Of a DNA stretch of 47,978 bases, positions 3,584 to 47,752 are shown in pieces; the first letter of the stretch is position 1, and the number at the start of each line of letters is the position of its first letter. A program made the translations under genes and the position numbers. The notes beneath the pieces are model-generated. The model saw only the letters and a program-made list of their open reading frames with translations. It was not told the origin of the DNA and made no database searches. The stretch comes from Thermodesulfovibrionales bacterium (GTDB taxonomy: Bacteria; Nitrospirota; Thermodesulfovibrionia; Thermodesulfovibrionales; SM23-35): the NCBI GenBank assembly GCA_031082155.1, contig JAVHLL010000022.1, positions 1-47,978 of the forward strand, given 5' to 3'.

Positions 3584-5179
3584 ATGGCATCTGAAGATAT
3601 CGGGGGGCTAAAGAACAGAATTAAGGCCCTGATTATATTCAGGGCCTTATTCGTAACCCTTTTCCTCAGTTCCACATATTTTTTCAGGGTCTTTGAGCAA
3701 TTTCCCTTTGTACGTCCCTTTACCTATCTTGTCGTTGCATTCTATAGCGTTACGCTTATTTACTTCCTCCTTTTCAATAAGATTCAGAATCTGCAGGCAT
3801 TTGCGTATATTCAGCTGATCCTTGATGTTTTTTTTGAAATAGCGCTCATTTATCTGACAGGAGGCATCGACAGCTGGTTCTCCTACACGCTTGTCCTTAC
3901 GATACTTGCCTCGAGTATAGTATTAAATCAAAGGGCAGGGTATATCATCGCAACAATGAGCAGCCTCCTGTACGGAACGCTGATCGTCCTGCAGTTCCAA
4001 AGGGTTCTGCCGGTAATCACGGATTATCAGGAAGCGGAAAATTATCTGTATAACATATTCATTCATATCTCCTCTTTCTATCTCATAGCATTTCTCAGCG
4101 GGTACCTTTCTTCACGGCTCGAAAAGACAAAAGAGAAACTGGCTGAAAAGGACCTGAATCTCCGGAACCTGGAATTTTTTAATCAGGAGGTGGTGGAAAG
4201 CCTGCCAAGTGGTCTCTTGACAACAGATATGTCCGGAACCGTCTTGCTCTTTAACCGTTCTGCAGAGCGGATAACAGGCATAAAAAGAGAGGCGGTAGTA
4301 GGAAAGGGGTATGATCTTGTTCTGCCGTTTCTGCGTTTTCCCTTTTCAGAAGGGCGGACAGAAGAGATGCTTTCTGCTGATGGAGTTCAGAAGATAGTCG
4401 GGGTGGGGATTTCCATGTTCAGGGGTGGAGATGAGAGCATGAAAGGATATATCGTGATTTTTCAAGACCTTACTGAATGGAAAAAACTTGAGGCAGAAAT
4501 GAAAAAGAGGGAAAAATGGGCGGCGATTGGCGAGCTTTCTTCGAACATCGCTCATGAGATCCGGAACCCCCTTGCATCTCTCAAGAGTTCCATCGAAATT
4601 CTCAAAGAGGATACGGTGGCAACGAACTATAAAAACCGCCTTATGGACATAGCCCTCCGGGAGATGAACCGCCTTGACAGAATTATCAAGGATTTCCTCA
4701 CTTACTCCCGCCCTATTCCCCCGTTGTTCAAACAGTTCAATATTCATGAACTGCTTGATGAGACTTTGGACCTCCTGAGGAATATCGATCAGAACAGGGA
4801 CACTATCAGCATACGCAAGCAGTATAGCGGGGTGTTTGAAGTGATCGCTGATCCACAGAAAATGCGGCAGGTATTCTGGAATCTCGGGTTAAATGCGCTC
4901 GACGCGATGCCCGATGGCGGAGAACTTGCAATTTCGACGAAGCACGAAAACAAGAGCCTGGTTATCACTTTCAGGGATACGGGAACCGGGATTGAAGAGA
5001 ATAAAATTGAGAAAATATTCTATCCCTTTTTCACCACAAAAGATCAGGGTACTGGACTTGGACTTGCGATCGCATACCGTATCATGGAAGAGCACAACGG
5101 CGCACTTACGGTTGAGAGTGTCCCTGGAATCGGCACGACTTTTAAGGTTATACTACGGGATACAAATGAAACGTCATAA
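3584..5179 (+). CDS. pilS: Sensor histidine kinase PilS
   Basis: Membrane sensor kinase expected to phosphorylate PilR and so control pilin transcription. About six transmembrane helices span 15-175, as in PilS proteins that sense pilin in the membrane. A PAS domain follows (about 200-300), then HisKA with the phospho-acceptor H324 in NIAHEIRNPLASLK. The HATPase domain has the N-box around N437, the G1 box DTGTGI (465-470) and the G2 box GTGLGLAI (489-496). No strong ribosome-binding site precedes the ATG; translation may be coupled to pilC 17 nt upstream. The 3' end overlaps the pilR start by 14 nt. Confidence 0.9.
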   Translation: MASEDIGGLKNRIKALIIFRALFVTLFLSSTYFFRVFEQFPFVRPFTYLVVAFYSVTLIYFLLFNKIQNLQAFAYIQLILDVFFEIALIYLTGGIDSWFSYTLVLTILASSIVLNQRAGYIIATMSSLLYGTLIVLQFQRVLPVITDYQEAENYLYNIFIHISSFYLIAFLSGYLSSRLEKTKEKLAEKDLNLRNLEFFNQEVVESLPSGLLTTDMSGTVLLFNRSAERITGIKREAVVGKGYDLVLPFLRFPFSEGRTEEMLSADGVQKIVGVGISMFRGGDESMKGYIVIFQDLTEWKKLEAEMKKREKWAAIGELSSNIAHEIRNPLASLKSSIEILKEDTVATNYKNRLMDIALREMNRLDRIIKDFLTYSRPIPPLFKQFNIHELLDETLDLLRNIDQNRDTISIRKQYSGVFEVIADPQKMRQVFWNLGLNALDAMPDGGELAISTKHENKSLVITFRDTGTGIEENKIEKIFYPFFTTKDQGTGLGLAIAYRIMEEHNGALTVESVPGIGTTFKVILRDTNETS

Positions 5180-6530
5180 GGGCAAAATCCTCATTGTTGA
5201 AGACGAAAAGAGTATGCGGGAGATACTCAAGATTCTCCTTGAAGAAGAAGACTATATTGTTTCTCCAGTAGCAGAAGGGCTTGAAGGCCTCGCCAGCATT
5301 GAAAAGGACATTTTCGACCTGGTTATCACCGACATGAAAATGCCCGGGGCTGACGGGTTTGAGGTGCTCAAGAAGGTCAAGGAGATATCACCTGAAACCA
5401 TGGTGATTATGATTACCGCCTTTGGGACTACCGAGACCGCAATTCAGGCAATGAAACTCGGCGCCTATGACTATATCCATAAACCGTTCAACATAGAAGA
5501 GATCAGGTTAATTGTTAGAAAAGCGATCGAAAAGAAGAGGTTGAGCGAAGAACTTTCCCTCCTCCGCCAGAAGGTGGAGACAGCATATTCTCTTCAGAAT
5601 ATCATTGGTAAGAGTCCCGGGATGCAGGAGTTGTTCAAGCTTATTCCGAGGATCGCCCAGAGCAACTCAAATGTCCTGATCACCGGCGAAAGCGGTTCAG
5701 GGAAAGAATTGTTTGCGAATGCCCTGCATACCCTTAGTGAAAGAAAAGACAAGAACCTTGTGGCGATTAATTGTGCTGCATTCCCTGAAGGCCTTCTCGA
5801 GTCAGAGCTTTTCGGCTATATGAAAGGTTCGTTCACCGGTGCATCGTCAAATAAACAGGGACTTTTTGAGATTGCAGACACCGGCAGCATTTTTCTTGAC
5901 GAGATAGGAGAAATGCCGCTTAATCTCCAGGTCAAACTTCTCAGGGTTCTTGAAAACGGCACCTTCCGGCGGCTGGGGGGAACAACAGACATCAGAGTCG
6001 ATGTAAGAATAATATCCGCAACGAATAAAGATTTGAAAGAAGAGATCTCAGCAGGAAGATTCCGTGAAGATTTGTATTATCGGCTGAACGTTATTCCGAT
6101 TCATATCCCTCCGCTGAGGGAGAGGCAGGAAGACATCCCGTTGCTTGTAGATCATTTTCTTGCAAAAACACCATCACAGGCAAAAATTATTACCCCTGCA
6201 GCTATGAAGCTCCTTGTGCAGTATGCGTGGAGGGGGAATGTGCGGGAACTCGAAAATGTTCTCCAGAGGATCTCACTGCTTGTCGACACACGTGAAATCA
6301 CTCCTCATGATCTTCCCCCGGAGATAACGGATACTGAAGAAGACTTTGCCGGCCGGGTTTTGATCACTGCTGGCGGGATTGATGTCGATGAAATTATCGG
6401 CAATATCGAGAAGCGTTATATTCTTCAGGCACTCGACAAAGCGCACGGGGTGAAAACAGAAGCTGCAAAACTGCTGCGCCTCTCGTTCCGTTCGTTCCGT
6501 CACAGACTGCAGAAATACGGGATAAAGTAG
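5166..6530 (+). CDS. pilR: Sigma-54-dependent response regulator PilR
   Basis: NtrC-family activator paired with PilS. The frame stays open upstream inside pilS, but the biological start is the ATG at 5166 (MKRHKGKILIVEDE), which gives 454 residues and a 14-nt overlap with pilS. The receiver domain has phospho-acceptor D56 in ITDMKMPG and K106. The AAA+ domain has Walker A GESGSGKE (174-181), the sigma-54 loop as GSFTGA (221-226; the Ser variant is frequent in PilR proteins), Walker B IFLDEIGEM (242-250) and GNVRELEN (357-364). A Fis-type helix-turn-helix closes the protein at about 428-452. The pilin target genes are not in this window. Confidence 0.93.
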   Translation: MKRHKGKILIVEDEKSMREILKILLEEEDYIVSPVAEGLEGLASIEKDIFDLVITDMKMPGADGFEVLKKVKEISPETMVIMITAFGTTETAIQAMKLGAYDYIHKPFNIEEIRLIVRKAIEKKRLSEELSLLRQKVETAYSLQNIIGKSPGMQELFKLIPRIAQSNSNVLITGESGSGKELFANALHTLSERKDKNLVAINCAAFPEGLLESELFGYMKGSFTGASSNKQGLFEIADTGSIFLDEIGEMPLNLQVKLLRVLENGTFRRLGGTTDIRVDVRIISATNKDLKEEISAGRFREDLYYRLNVIPIHIPPLRERQEDIPLLVDHFLAKTPSQAKIITPAAMKLLVQYAWRGNVRELENVLQRISLLVDTREITPHDLPPEITDTEEDFAGRVLITAGGIDVDEIIGNIEKRYILQALDKAHGVKTEAAKLLRLSFRSFRHRLQKYGIK

Positions 6531-6597
6531 CGAGCCGGATCATGTCTTTTGGAGATGAAAGCAATCCGGACACTTTGGAAATTATACGGAGAATAAT

Positions 6598-6975
6598 ATG
6601 AGCACATTTATTCGTTTCGGAAAATATCTTGAGGGAAAAGGGCTGATCACCGCGGATGCGATTATTAGTGCAAGGCTGCTCCAGAGAGGAAATAACCGAA
6701 AGATCGGGAAACTCGCCAGGGACAAGGGATGGCTTACAGAAGATGACATCCTCAGGATATTAGTTATACAGGAAGAGACAGGTGAAAAATTTGGTGATAT
6801 CGCAGTCAGGGAAAAGTATTTAACCAATGAACAGGTTGAAGAACTTTTACAAATACAAAGTGATTCCTATATGTATTTTGGAGAAGCGCTGGTCAGGATT
6901 GGAGTTCTTTCGGATGAAGAGGTAAAAAAGCAACTTCAGGAATACGACAGATTAACCGAAGAAGCAAGGACTTAA
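6598..6975 (+). CDS. Four-repeat MshEN-like small protein
   Basis: A soluble 125-residue protein of unknown role. After six residues it consists of four tandem 29-residue units: 7-35, 36-64, 65-93 and 94-122. Each begins with F/I-G, has a buried hydrophobic and a (G/K)x(L/I)(T/S) turn near unit positions 9-12, then an acidic helix ending in L..Q or similar. This pattern resembles the helical motifs of MshEN/GSPII_E_N domains at the N terminus of pilus ATPases, some of which bind c-di-GMP. Here they stand alone, without any ATPase. The ribosome-binding site GGAGA lies 7 nt before the ATG. Position 67 nt after pilR suggests a pilus-related adaptor, but that is inference. Confidence 0.75.
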   Translation: MSTFIRFGKYLEGKGLITADAIISARLLQRGNNRKIGKLARDKGWLTEDDILRILVIQEETGEKFGDIAVREKYLTNEQVEELLQIQSDSYMYFGEALVRIGVLSDEEVKKQLQEYDRLTEEART

Positions 6976-38551: not shown

Positions 38552-38594
38552 TAACGTGTTTAAATAAATAAATTTGCTGCTGAGGTTTTGTTCC

Positions 38595-41500
38595 ATGAGG
38601 AAAAAGAATGAAAACGGAAGATTTGCCGCGAAAGGCATAATCGCGCTTGCAGTTATGGTAATCATGACTGCCGGAGCATTTTTTGCCTGGTGGACGGCGC
38701 GCATAACCGAGCGGGATATGAGGGCAGACTTACTCAGGAAGACCCGGCTGCTGGCTGATGCGATTCACCTCAAGGGCATGGCAGCATTGAGCGGCACAGA
38801 AGCAGATTTAACCACTCCGCAATATCTGCGGTTCAAAGACCAGCTTGCCGGTGCCCGCCATGTATTCCCAAACTGCCGATTCCTCTATCTGATGGGACAG
38901 AAGCCTGACGGCGCAATATTCTTCTTCGTGGATTCCGAACCAGAAGGTTCTGCAGATGAATCGCCTGCCGGACAAATATATGAAGAAGCATCAGAAGTGA
39001 CCCGCCGTGTTTTTTCGACTGGCCGTGCGGATACCGATGGGCCGACCACTGACCGATGGGGCACGTGGGTGAGTGCGCTTGTCCCGTTATCCGACCCTCG
39101 CACGGGCAAGATTATGGCAATCGTCGGCATGGATGTGGACGCACGGAATTGGCAGGCGGTTGTGATGCGCAAGATGATACTTCCCATCGCATTTACGGTG
39201 ATGCTGGTCATAATAGTTCTGGCAGCAGCCGCACTTCTGAAATGGCGTACGCGTCTGCCCGCAGGGCGGCAAAACGGGTGGTTGCCCCGCCATATTGAAA
39301 CGGTGATTACAGCCGCTGCCGGCCTGGCGCTTACCTTGATTTTTGCGTATAAGGCGTATGATGTTCAGGATAACGCCCGGCGGGAAACGTTCTCACGTCT
39401 GGTAATGGCGAAAGCAGCACGTATTACAGAGGCCATGCGCGACATACGCACCAACCAGCTGGAGGGGTTATCGCGTTTCTTTGAATCAAGCGTGCACGTA
39501 GAGCACTGGGAATTCGAGACGTACGCGAGATATTTGACCGAGGGCCCCACAGTACAATCCTGGCAGTGGATTCCTGCGATTCCTGCAAAAGAAAGATTTC
39601 AGATACAGGAGGAAGCCCTCAGGAACGGCACAGGAAAGTTTGTCATATGGGAGCGGAATGCGGAAGGGAAACGAACAGCGGTCACGGCGCGAAATACCTA
39701 CTATCCTGTTTTCTATGTTGAACCACTAACGGGAAACGAGGCCATCCTGGGGTATGATATGGGTTCAGAAGCGAAGCGCCGGACGGCGATGGAGACAGCG
39801 GCGAGAACCGGTCTGATCACAGCTACCGACTCAATTGCACTGCTTGAGGAAAAGGAAACTCAGAAGGGAATAATAGTATTTCGGCCGATTTTTGGTCAGC
39901 AAGATCACCTGCAAGGTTTTACCGCGTGTGTCTTGCACATTGAAACTATACTCATACGTACAGTCAGGCAGCCCGGTGACAGAGAGGCTGCTGTCATCCT
40001 GGAACTGTTTCAACTTCAGGCTGGCGGACAGCAGCAGTTTCTGGCTTCAACATCGCCGGAGCACGCATCGAGTGAAAGAGTGGAGTCCGCACTCTGGCAA
40101 TACCCCGATGAAGCATTCACGGTTATTGCGCCGCTCTTTGCATACGGGAAAACCTATGCGGTGGTGGCGCATCCGGGGCCGGCTTTTGCAGGACTCTATC
40201 CGGTACGGGCCGGGTGGATGACAGCGGCAGCAGGAATAGCCCTGACATCCATGCTGTCGTTAATGATCGGTTTTCTGGGTAATCGCCGCTTCGCCCTCGA
40301 GCAGCAGGTGCTTTGGAGGACTGCTGAATTGAGGGAGAGCGAGGAGCTTTTCAGGAATCTTTTCGAATACCATGCCGCGGTGAAGGTTATCATTGATCCT
40401 GATACCGGTGCTATCATTGATGCGAATGAAGCGGCAGAAAACTTTTATGGATGGTCGCGTGAACAGCTTAAAAATATGACAATACAGGACATCAACACGC
40501 TTCCTCCTCATGAAGTGAAAAAAGAGATGGACGAGGTAGGGCAAAACAATCGGGTGCATTTTGAATTCCGTCACAGACTGGCTGATGGTTCCATAAGGGA
40601 TGTGGAGGTGTTCAGCAGCAAAATAAACACGAAAGAAAAAGATTTTCTTCATTCCGTTATTCATGATATCACCGACCGCAAACGGGCAGAAAAAGCGCTG
40701 CTTAAGGAGAAGACATTCTCTGAAACGGCAATCAACAGCCTGCCCGGGCTCTTCTACCTTTTTGATGAAAGTGGACGTATTCAGCAGTGGAACAGAAATT
40801 TCGAAAAAGTTTCAGGATATTCACCCGAAGAGATAGAAAAAATGAATCCACTGGATTTCTTTCCGGAGGAAAATAAACAGTTGGTTGCGGATGTAATGAA
40901 GGAAGTTTTTGTAAACGGTGACTCCCGGGTGGAAGCAGATTTTGTCTCAAAAGACGGAAGAAGGACGCCCTATTATTTTACAGGGTTACGTTTTGTATTG
41001 GACAACAGACCTTATCTGGTCGGCATGGGCATTGATATCACCGAGCGCAAGCTGGCTGAGGAAGAGCATAGATTGAATGAGTCCCGTATTTCTGCACTTC
41101 TTGAACTCAGCCGTATGGCACACCAGCCAGACCAGATGCTTACAGGCTTTGCCCTTGAAAAGGCCATAGAACTCACAGGCAGTGAAATAGGCTATCTTGC
41201 TTTTATGAACGAAGACGAAACGGTATTGACCATGTACTCTTGGTCCAGGCAGGCAATGCAGGAATGCATGGTTGAACAAAAGCCGATTGTCTATCCGGTT
41301 GAAACAACAGGGCTTTGGGGTGAAGCAGTTCGTCAGCGTAAGCCTGTAATTACCAATGATTATCAGGCGTCAAACCCTCTTAAAAAGGGGTATCCCGAGG
41401 GACATGTACAGGTTATACGACATATGAATATACCGCTTTTTGATAGAGACAGGATTGTGCTGGTGGCAGGTGTGGGGAATAAGAAAGATCCTTATGGAGA

Positions 41501-43082
41501 CAGGGATATACAGGAATTAACCCTGCTGATGGATGGAATGTGGAAAATTATCAAGCAAAAGCGCGCGGAAGATGCATTAATGGAATCTGAAAAAAGGTAC
41601 CGCCTGCTTTTCGAAAATGCAACAGACGCTATTTTCATAGCTCAAGATGAACGAATCAAATTTCCTAATCCCCGGCTCGAATTACTCTCAGGCTATACAA
41701 CCCATGAATTAACCGGGATGTCTTTTTTGGATTTCGTCTATCTTGCGGATAGAGACATGGTTTTAGAAAAGCAAAGGAAAATGCTGAGGGGTGATATTTT
41801 CTCCGCTACCTATTCTTTCAGGTTCATCACGAAATCCGGTGAAGATATCTGGGTGGAACTGAGTAACGTGATCATTGAATGGCAGGGAAGGCCGGCGACC
41901 CTTAATTTTTTGAGAGACATTACGCAGCAGAAAAAAATGGAGGCACAGCTCTTTCAGGCACAGAAGATGGAAGCTATAGGCCAGCTTGCAGGAGGGCTGG
42001 CGCATGATTTCAACAATCTTCTGACAGCTATTATAGGTTACGGGCACCTCCTGCAGAATAAAGTGAGTCGGAGTGAAAGCACGAGTGCTTATGTCGATCA
42101 TATATTAAGCGCAGCCGAAAGGGCTGCTATTTTAACGAATGATCTCCTGACCTTCAGCAGGAAACAGATCGTCAATCTTCAGCCTGTGGATCTGAACAAG
42201 ATAATCAAAAATATGGAAGGTCTTTTATCGCGGGTTATTGGAGAAGACATAGAACTTTCGACCATTCTGGCAGATACTGAATTGACCATCATGGCTGATA
42301 GTACGCAGATAGATCAGATACTCATGAATCTTGCCACAAACGCAAAGGACGCAATGCTCAAGGGAGGGAGTGTATTGATCAGGACAGACCGTATGGAAAT
42401 AAATGGTGAATATATCAAAGCATATGGTTATGGTAACCCTGGTTCGTATGCTCTGCTTTCAGTTGAGGACACAGGAACTGGCATGGATGAGATGATAAAA
42501 GGGAGAATATTTGAGCCATTTTTTACAACGAAGGACGTTGGAAAAGGCACAGGCCTTGGGCTTGCAATGGTGTATGGTATCGTCAAACAGCATGATGGCT
42601 ATATCAATGTATATAGTGAGATTGGCAAAGGGACGACATTCAAGATCTTATTGCCATTAATTCAGGCAAAGGTTCAGGAAATTAGACCTGAGGACTCACA
42701 GAAGGTAAAAGGAGGCACTGAAACAATCCTCATTGCAGAGGATGATCAGCACGTAAGAAAGCTTCTGATAGAAATACTTTCGCATGCAGGGTATCATATT
42801 ATGGAGGCAGTTGATGGCGAGGATGCAGTAAAGGTATTTCATGAACATAGAGATAAAATCGATCTTCTTACCCTTGATGTCATCATGCCAAAGAAAAACG
42901 GTAAAGAGGTATATGCAGAGATCAAAAAGGTTAAGCCTGCTATAAAAGTAATTTTTGTGAGTGGATATAGTGCGGATATTATGCATAAGAAAGGTCTTTT
43001 AGAGGTTGGACTGAACTTTGTCTCAAAGCCTGTTTTACCCGATGAACTCTTACTGAAGATCAGAAATGTTTTGGACAAATAA
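38595..43082 (+). CDS. Hybrid sensor histidine kinase with CHASE, PAS, GAF and receiver domains
   Basis: A membrane-bound hybrid kinase of about 1495 residues. Start: ATG 38595 (MRKKNENGR), with GAGG 9 nt upstream; a TTG at 38574 is the alternative. Order: one transmembrane helix, a first periplasmic sensor (about 35-185), helix, second helix, a CHASE domain (about 255-480), helix, PAS, PAS, GAF, PAS, HisKA with H1137 in LAHDFNNLLTAIIG, HATPase with DTGTGMD and GTGLGLAM, and a receiver with D1428 in LTLDVIMPKKNG. Such fused receivers need a separate histidine-phosphotransfer protein or act internally. No partner regulator or target gene adjoins, so the input is unknown. Confidence 0.9.
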   Translation: MRKKNENGRFAAKGIIALAVMVIMTAGAFFAWWTARITERDMRADLLRKTRLLADAIHLKGMAALSGTEADLTTPQYLRFKDQLAGARHVFPNCRFLYLMGQKPDGAIFFFVDSEPEGSADESPAGQIYEEASEVTRRVFSTGRADTDGPTTDRWGTWVSALVPLSDPRTGKIMAIVGMDVDARNWQAVVMRKMILPIAFTVMLVIIVLAAAALLKWRTRLPAGRQNGWLPRHIETVITAAAGLALTLIFAYKAYDVQDNARRETFSRLVMAKAARITEAMRDIRTNQLEGLSRFFESSVHVEHWEFETYARYLTEGPTVQSWQWIPAIPAKERFQIQEEALRNGTGKFVIWERNAEGKRTAVTARNTYYPVFYVEPLTGNEAILGYDMGSEAKRRTAMETAARTGLITATDSIALLEEKETQKGIIVFRPIFGQQDHLQGFTACVLHIETILIRTVRQPGDREAAVILELFQLQAGGQQQFLASTSPEHASSERVESALWQYPDEAFTVIAPLFAYGKTYAVVAHPGPAFAGLYPVRAGWMTAAAGIALTSMLSLMIGFLGNRRFALEQQVLWRTAELRESEELFRNLFEYHAAVKVIIDPDTGAIIDANEAAENFYGWSREQLKNMTIQDINTLPPHEVKKEMDEVGQNNRVHFEFRHRLADGSIRDVEVFSSKINTKEKDFLHSVIHDITDRKRAEKALLKEKTFSETAINSLPGLFYLFDESGRIQQWNRNFEKVSGYSPEEIEKMNPLDFFPEENKQLVADVMKEVFVNGDSRVEADFVSKDGRRTPYYFTGLRFVLDNRPYLVGMGIDITERKLAEEEHRLNESRISALLELSRMAHQPDQMLTGFALEKAIELTGSEIGYLAFMNEDETVLTMYSWSRQAMQECMVEQKPIVYPVETTGLWGEAVRQRKPVITNDYQASNPLKKGYPEGHVQVIRHMNIPLFDRDRIVLVAGVGNKKDPYGDRDIQELTLLMDGMWKIIKQKRAEDALMESEKRYRLLFENATDAIFIAQDERIKFPNPRLELLSGYTTHELTGMSFLDFVYLADRDMVLEKQRKMLRGDIFSATYSFRFITKSGEDIWVELSNVIIEWQGRPATLNFLRDITQQKKMEAQLFQAQKMEAIGQLAGGLAHDFNNLLTAIIGYGHLLQNKVSRSESTSAYVDHILSAAERAAILTNDLLTFSRKQIVNLQPVDLNKIIKNMEGLLSRVIGEDIELSTILADTELTIMADSTQIDQILMNLATNAKDAMLKGGSVLIRTDRMEINGEYIKAYGYGNPGSYALLSVEDTGTGMDEMIKGRIFEPFFTTKDVGKGTGLGLAMVYGIVKQHDGYINVYSEIGKGTTFKILLPLIQAKVQEIRPEDSQKVKGGTETILIAEDDQHVRKLLIEILSHAGYHIMEAVDGEDAVKVFHEHRDKIDLLTLDVIMPKKNGKEVYAEIKKVKPAIKVIFVSGYSADIMHKKGLLEVGLNFVSKPVLPDELLLKIRNVLDK

Positions 43083-46831: not shown

Positions 46832-47752
46832 CTAAACAAATTCAACCCTGTTCCCACCTTTTATTTTTGCCTGGTACATAGCAAGGTCAGCCGCCTTCAC
46901 CATCTTCTCAGTCGTGTCTAGCTTCGGGTCTGGAATACTCGCTACTCCGATACTTACAGTGATTTGATCGGGATAACCTGAAAAAGAGCTCTCCGCAATC
47001 GCGGTGCAGATTCTCGACGAAGGAATTATGATATTTTCTCTCCCAGTCTGGGGCATGAGAACACAAAATTCTTCACCCCCCCACCGCGCAACGGTATCAA
47101 CCTTCCTCACATTATTTTGTATGATCTCCGCAATCTCCTTTAGACACGTGTCCCCAACCTGATGGCCGTATTTATCATTAATGCGCTTAAAATTGTCTAT
47201 ATCGATCAGGAGGCAGGAAAGGGGCGATTGGTACCGGGAAGTCTTATTGAATTCATTCTCGAGCAAAGTCTCGAACTGCCTGCGGTTGGAAAGACCGGTG
47301 AGGGAATCTGTCGAGGCAAGGATCTCCACCTTTGCGAGTACGTCCTTCAACTGCTTGTTCATCCGCCGCAGTTCGTCATGCAATGCTTTTGTCCGGAGGC
47401 TCGCATAGATTCTCGCAATGAGTTCTTCATCGCTGAAGGGTTTGGGGAGGTAATCATCAGCCCCCGCTTTCAAGCCGTCAATCCTCTCCTCGGTTGAACG
47501 TTTCACCGTGAGGGCAATGATTGGAATTCCCCTGGTATCTTCGCCATGTTTTAACAAACGGCATATGTCATTGCCATTGATATCGGGAAGGACAAAATCA
47601 AGCACTATGATATCGAGTGGCTGAGTTTTTGCAACTTTTAGCGCTTTCTTCCCGTTTTCAGCCCAGATGATTTCGAACCCTTTGGATGTCAGAGATTTTT
47701 TTATGGCCTTTGCCTGAAGCTTGTCATCCTCAACAAGAAGTATTTTTGCCAT
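46832..47752 (-). CDS. Response regulator with GGDEF domain (diguanylate cyclase)
   Basis: Makes c-di-GMP when phosphorylated. The receiver (about 1-120) has phospho-acceptor D52 in IIVLDFVLPD and K104 in YLPKPFSD. A short helical linker leads to the GGDEF domain (about 145-306): DSLTGLSNRRQF, DIDNFKRINDKYGHQVGD and the active GGEEF at 225-229. The product-inhibition I-site RKVD (R216-D219) lies five residues before it. So both activity and feedback sites are intact, the PleD/WspR plan. The sensor kinase is not adjacent. If the repeat protein at 6598 binds c-di-GMP, the pili could be one output. Confidence 0.92.
   Translation of the reverse strand: MAKILLVEDDKLQAKAIKKSLTSKGFEIIWAENGKKALKVAKTQPLDIIVLDFVLPDINGNDICRLLKHGEDTRGIPIIALTVKRSTEERIDGLKAGADDYLPKPFSDEELIARIYASLRTKALHDELRRMNKQLKDVLAKVEILASTDSLTGLSNRRQFETLLENEFNKTSRYQSPLSCLLIDIDNFKRINDKYGHQVGDTCLKEIAEIIQNNVRKVDTVARWGGEEFCVLMPQTGRENIIIPSSRICTAIAESSFSGYPDQITVSIGVASIPDPKLDTTEKMVKAADLAMYQAKIKGGNRVEFV

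Follow-up and report, generated by a model that had tools for sequence, protein, structure and literature searches.

The protein encoded at positions 6598..6975 (+) of the window, by which we mean the whole analysed stretch of 47,978 nt from a Thermodesulfovibrionales bacterium, is read here, with a probability of roughly 60%, as a freely diffusing receptor for c-di-GMP whose one site is central and whose flanking half-units, conserved but non-binding, dock either to one another or to a partner. This 125-aa protein, which we call MSH4, is defined by the ORF call, by its match to a curated c-di-GMP motif family and by an alignable family of 46 members. All of its residues except a few terminal ones belong to an array of motifs, with nothing else attached, so that MSH4 would be a small soluble receptor built only of MshEN_N motifs. 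Because it has no output domain, it would be expected to act in trans, altering the activity of a partner as c-di-GMP rises, much as single-domain PilZ proteins do.

The first-pass annotation of the window had described four gap-free 29-residue units (7-35, 36-64, 65-93 and 94-122). This description holds in a self-comparison of MSH4, in which lag 29 scores 84 and the second-best lag -35; among 20,000 shuffles the best score at any lag is 26, and none reaches 84. The period is also kept in the 46 family members. The published MshEN motif comprises 24 residues with a 5-residue spacer and has the consensus RLGxx(L/V/I)(L/V/I)xxG(L/V/I)(L/V/I)xxxxLxxxLxxQ (Wang et al. 2016, PMC5013675), and the 29-residue period of MSH4 is thus that of motif plus spacer. 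MSH4 has four such motifs, starting in the published frame at R6, K35, K64 and Y93, one residue before the units as first annotated. Unit 1 (aa 6-29, 6613..6684, +, RFGKYLEGKGLITADAIISARLLQ) was placed by self-comparison, alignment and the contacts in PMC5013675. Units 2 (aa 35-58, 6700..6771, +, KIGKLARDKGWLTEDDILRILVIQ) and 3 (aa 64-87, 6787..6858, +, KFGDIAVREKYLTNEQVEELLQIQ) were placed by alignment, contact check and structure comparison, and unit 4 (aa 93-116, 6874..6945, +, YFGEALVRIGVLSDEEVKKQLQEY) by alignment and contact check.

MSH4 matches NF053729, a curated NCBIfam family (c-di-GMP motif, MshE-related) with a cut-off of 38 bits, at 73.5 bits (E 8.8e-21, three stretches), as do all 50 aligned relatives. 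Searched with Pfam, it gave no match to MshEN (PF05157, which includes MshEN_C) at E up to 10. That model appears to cover chiefly the C-terminal subdomain, absent from MSH4, since several of its matches in the window genome sit directly after a motif pair. No match to the T2SSE ATPase domain was found in Pfam either, in keeping with the earlier remark that this 125-aa protein carries no ATPase. When the family model was run against the DNA of the genome, units 2-3, 3-4 and 1-2 score 41.0, 36.0 and 32.3 bits in the MSH4 gene, and 24.7, 35.5 and 31.2 bits in a paralogue on contig C24. The middle pair is thus the best in one and the worst in the other, and the curated model is not enough by itself to pick it out. 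Some other matches were rejected. DUF4388 (Pfam) is below its cut-off on MSH4, and the matches to TIGR03029 EpsG and NfrB reflect the same motif present in other proteins. FumaraseC_C (Pfam) is also below cut-off on MSH4 and was not taken as homology; it matches 35 of the 50 relatives at E <= 0.001, and fumarases appear among the lower-ranking structural matches, all of which we treat as a common short helical arrangement.

The MSH4 family is conserved across Nitrospirota. Some match to MSH4 is found in 49 of 61 related genomes; many of these are MshEN regions of other proteins, but the highest-ranking ones are free-standing frames of some 125-160 residues. With a profile, matches, longer fusion proteins included, were obtained in 56 of 296 Nitrospirota genomes, counts that cover this phylum, with genomes outside it under-sampled. 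The 46 alignable Nitrospirota members have no indels over residues 6-118. The window genome carries a second copy, the C24 paralogue, which is 56% identical to MSH4. In the tree, the two copies linked to pil genes form one group (100/99), separate from the C24-type copies that these two genomes also carry, so the two types are old paralogues. Comparison with the same-genus orthologue gives dN 0.040 against dS 0.334 (dN/dS about 0.12), indicating purifying selection on the MSH4 gene.

Which units could bind a ligand can be judged from known contacts. The MshE and PilF structures show one guanine per motif. Its Hoogsteen edge is bound by Gly3 and the amide that follows; hydrophobic residues at 17 and 21, joined by position 2 of the partner motif, stack on one face of the base, the opposite face is covered by position 1, and Gln24 binds ribose and phosphate (PMC5013675, PMC11731258). 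We called a site intact if both motifs of a pair have Gly3, Gln24 and hydrophobic residues at 2, 17 and 21. Units 2-3 qualify in 40 of 46 members, MSH4 among them, and neither units 1-2 (0/46) nor units 3-4 (0/46) do so in any. Of the PilB motif pairs of relatives, 14 distinct ones served as a control and all 14 qualify; the control is lenient because these pairs were picked by a pattern itself requiring LG and the first Gln. Units 1-2 fail at a single position, Arg26 in place of the ligand-stacking Leu of unit 1, found in 45 of 46 members; Gln24 is kept in this pair, and Gly3 in both outer pairs. Units 3-4 fail at position 24 of unit 4 (residue 116), which is Phe or Tyr in 46/46, and position 1 of that unit (residue 93) is Phe or Tyr in 41/46; MSH4 itself has aromatics in place of Arg and Gln at these two positions. 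Fixed to the same degree as the canonical residues, these substitutions indicate that units 1 and 4 are selected for a purpose other than canonical ligand binding.

The first half of the predicted c-di-GMP site consists of K35, I36, G37, I51, L55 and Q58 in unit 2, and the second half of K64, F65, G66, V80, L84 and Q87 in unit 3. Each unit would clasp one guanine through the backbone amides of positions 3 and 4, a cluster of Leu, Ile, Val and Phe, Lys35 or Lys64, and Gln58 or Gln87. Arg is not found at position 1 of each motif, being replaced by K35 and K64 in these two units. The lysines do not speak against binding, because PilF GSPII-B, with Lys167 at position 1, binds with a KD of 6 nM, and more weakly once Arg is restored; there Lys or Leu at position 1 is tolerated with higher affinity, and Q190E+Q218E abolishes c-di-GMP binding (PMC11731258). 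Two features count against the reading: position 1 of unit 2 is variable across the MSH4 family (K, R, M, L or others), and position 2 of unit 3 is Phe instead of Leu. Isolated MshEN_N without MshEN_C still binds c-di-GMP, with a KD of 0.35 uM (PMC5013675). The contact residues and the modelled fold together suggest that the site probably lies between units 2 and 3 and takes one ligand.

An AlphaFold2 model of MSH4 (27 sequences) has a pLDDT of 87. Foldseek places c-di-GMP-bound MshE and PilF-GSPIIB on its residues 31-89 with an rmsd of 1.1 A over 52 columns, and VIA-align scores the same two structures at Z 8.0-8.4 over 56-57 residues. The model of the C24 paralogue (50 sequences, pLDDT 93.7) has four equal hairpins; MshE falls on its residues 36-93 with Z 11.5 and 1.3 A over 58 residues, and with an rmsd of 0.7 A over 56 columns in Foldseek. 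In both models the MshEN matches with Z > 5 fall on units 2-3, where a four-helix bundle like that of 5HTL is predicted. Since Foldseek gives weak E-values (about 0.2 for its best MshEN-type match) and helical bundles easily give middling Z, the weight of the fold comparison lies in its agreement with the sequence family and in the low rmsd. The outer pairs may fold alike, as structure aligners report just the best region. A helix at 19-42 joining units 1 and 2 in the first AlphaFold2 model was discarded in favour of the four hairpins of the better-supported paralogue model. The comparison with MshEN structures that the first-pass annotation had called for thus returned a matching fold rather than an unrelated one and, with the NF053729 match and the intact contacts of units 2-3, upholds its MshEN-like assignment.

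In the mechanism we propose, units 2 and 3 would fold as one MshEN_N four-helix bundle with a single c-di-GMP between them. Units 1 and 4 would keep the hairpin fold, their nucleotide pocket spoiled by Arg26, Phe/Tyr93 and Phe/Tyr116, and would most likely provide a surface for partner docking or dimerisation. A more tentative idea, to which we give a clearly smaller chance, is that units 1 and 4 pair with each other, within the chain or across a dimer, with side chains filling the place of a second nucleotide, or that the outer pair binds a different ligand. If units 1 and 4 do pair, MSH4 would be a switch, closed or domain-swapped, whose unit 1/unit 4 interface is governed by c-di-GMP binding at units 2-3; such a switch, or a different outer ligand, would represent a new way to build a signalling switch from MshEN motifs.

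The single central site has to be weighed against the naive pairing of four motifs, namely two MshEN_N domains in tandem (units 1-2 and 3-4), each with one c-di-GMP. Proteins of the form (MshEN_N)2 are mentioned as known by Wang et al. 2016 (PMC5013675), and the Gly3 residues of both outer pairs and the Gln24 residues of units 1-2 would fit such a layout. We nevertheless consider it unlikely: Arg at the guanine-stacking position of unit 1 is the same kind of change as the L29R listed for the non-binder XpsE (PMC5013675), unit 4 lacks Gln24 in every member and is mostly aromatic at position 1, and both AlphaFold2 models place the MshE match on units 2-3.

It is comparably improbable that MSH4 is a ligand-free structural or protein-protein module, its MshEN_N fold kept for docking and its binding lost as in XpsE or in PilF GSPII-A, a degenerate MshEN domain with the right fold that does not bind (PMC12002112). 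The degenerate outer units and the variable position 1 of unit 2 would suit this, and so would a set of fusion proteins (L049 1468-2358, also L050 and L051) in which a cyclic-nucleotide-binding domain, matched by Pfam in L049, is attached to a four-motif block whose units 2 and 3 no longer have Gly3 and whose unit 3 also lacks Gln24. However, a structural role would not need the two Gly3, two Gln24 and hydrophobic cluster that units 2-3 keep in 40 of 46 stand-alone members.

Other fusions of the four-motif block were also seen. Its fusion to CheX occurs in L047 and also in L055-L057, which are Clostridia loci. In L047 (254-1516), from a genome of the same family, a CheY-like receiver gene lies directly before the four-motif-CheX gene, and in the Clostridia loci that gene is followed by a short response-regulator-like gene, which suggests a c-di-GMP-controlled phosphatase module. 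In L052 (976-1908) the block stands behind a J-domain (DnaJ; Pfam match), and a similar sequence is present in L087 (7495-8289); these fusions link the c-di-GMP-type motif to a co-chaperone domain. In L083 and L118 the block comes after a cysteine-rich CWE..CG sequence.

The gene order in the window is pilB (cut by the contig start), pilT, pilC, pilS, pilR and MSH4. The pilR gene (5148..6530, +; ORF call, Pfam), encoding a sigma-54 response regulator, is the last of this truncated cluster. The 67-bp gap that follows (6531..6597, +) contains a purine-rich possible ribosome-binding region, CGGAGAATAAT, and the scan found no terminator-like or sigma-70-like site in it, so co-transcription of MSH4 with pilR is possible. 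The window itself begins inside pilB (1-1152). Two tandem pilB genes, each of about 600 aa, are present in the clusters of four relatives (L088, L089, L093 and L104), and the contig break at the window start therefore probably stems from such a repeat. The end of another contig (C48:1-60, locus L103) holds a PilB-like N-terminus in a frame beginning MATKLGQLLVTGNVITEE, probably the missing PilB start of the window genome.

The same order, from pilC to greA, recurs in one congener, and only in that genome and the window genome does the MSH4 gene directly follow pilR. It is not found after pilR in 15 relatives' pil clusters readable through pilR; several of these genomes carry an MSH4-family gene elsewhere. 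In genome G014, fdhD and a malic enzyme gene come straight after pilR, the same locus without MSH4 and its DUF192 neighbour. The pil neighbourhood that the first-pass annotation expected to be conserved in relatives is thus confined to the genus; by that annotation's own refuting condition, this tells against the PilB-specific part of its proposal and not against the c-di-GMP part. Elsewhere, family members adjoin tilS, nadA, ubiE, hemC, ogt, an RND transporter, TPR proteins, HDOD or HAD-PilZ. A search for recurring operon partners of the family gave none apart from lineage-wide neighbours; a HAD-PilZ protein is encoded directly upstream in two genera, and an HDOD-type protein in two genomes of one genus (Pfam tested in one). 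The pil linkage is weak, and the position beside pilus genes is a recent local accident, not the rule. The gene would have moved beside pilR in the window genus, where it may be co-expressed with the pilus regulators, and the family as a whole would not be a pilus component.

These contexts also bear on the role first proposed for MSH4, a c-di-GMP-responsive adaptor or decoy for PilB. The link to c-di-GMP is favoured by NF053729, the fold and the contacts of units 2-3; the PilB part, possible in the window genus, drew no positive support, comparative support included. PilT is present in all 61 genomes searched, which makes the presence of the gene uninformative with respect to the presence of type IV pili. 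A PilB-specific protein competing with, or relaying to, the MshEN of the pilus extension ATPase is the least probable reading: the gene follows pilR in two congeneric genomes and c-di-GMP receptors acting on PilB are known, such as FimX with PilZ, reportedly in Xanthomonas citri, but the linkage is limited to the genus and missing from the 15 clusters, many genomes with PilT lack an MSH4-family gene, relatives' PilBs carry their own complete MshEN motif pair, and other family members adjoin unrelated genes.

The window genome is rich in c-di-GMP signalling, with 20 GGDEF and 27 PilZ matches. As already annotated, a diguanylate cyclase of the response-regulator type is encoded in the window, 40 kb from MSH4 (46832-47752, -): a REC-GGDEF protein with GGEEF and, five residues upstream, an RxxD inhibitory-site pattern. 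The window also encodes a 1502-aa hybrid histidine kinase (38574-43082, +) with CHASE, several PAS, GAF and receiver domains. Elsewhere in the window genome, a 372-aa frame (L011, G000:C2, about 37.6-38.3 kb) contains three pairs of MshEN motifs, six in all, ahead of a hydrophobic stretch and a tail that may be periplasmic; it is an unusual candidate for a membrane c-di-GMP receptor.

In most bacteria the enzymes that make c-di-GMP outnumber the known receptors, and MSH4, which is conserved across Nitrospirota, is a compact candidate receptor. If it binds c-di-GMP, it would be a minimal system for MshEN signal transmission without an attached enzyme, and its partner, once found, would show what output-less receptors control. 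It also illustrates that motif count is not site count, as its four motifs probably make one site. Single-domain PilZ proteins are likewise small c-di-GMP receptors without an output domain that are expected to act in trans, although their fold and binding motif are unrelated to those of MSH4.

The closest comparison is with the MshEN_N of Vibrio cholerae MshE (PDB 5HTL; PMC5013675), in which two 24-residue motifs with a 5-residue spacer form a four-helix bundle; units 2-3 of the C24 paralogue model superpose on it at 0.7-1.3 A. Unlike MshE, MSH4 has four motifs rather than two, neither MshEN_C nor an ATPase, and outer motifs that are degenerate in a fixed manner. PilF GSPII-B of Thermus thermophilus (PDB 8PDK; PMC11731258) resembles MSH4 in that its first motif has Lys at position 1, and is 36% identical to the model across the aligned units 2-3, yet it belongs to a traffic ATPase in which each of three separate GSPII domains has a C-terminal subdomain of its own. 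Wang et al. 2016 (PMC5013675) list (MshEN_N)2 and MshEN fusions to REC, HD-GYP, CheA, CheX and kinases; MshEN_N outside pilus ATPases, also in tandem, is thus common to these proteins and MSH4, and CheX fusions recur in L047 and L055-L057. In contrast to the fusions in that list, the MSH4 family has no output domain and its intact site is in units 2-3, not in 1-2 and 3-4. Measured against the portion of that paper drawn on here, MshEN_N tandems and CheX fusions are already known; what is new is that the central site lies out of register and that the outer substitutions are fixed.
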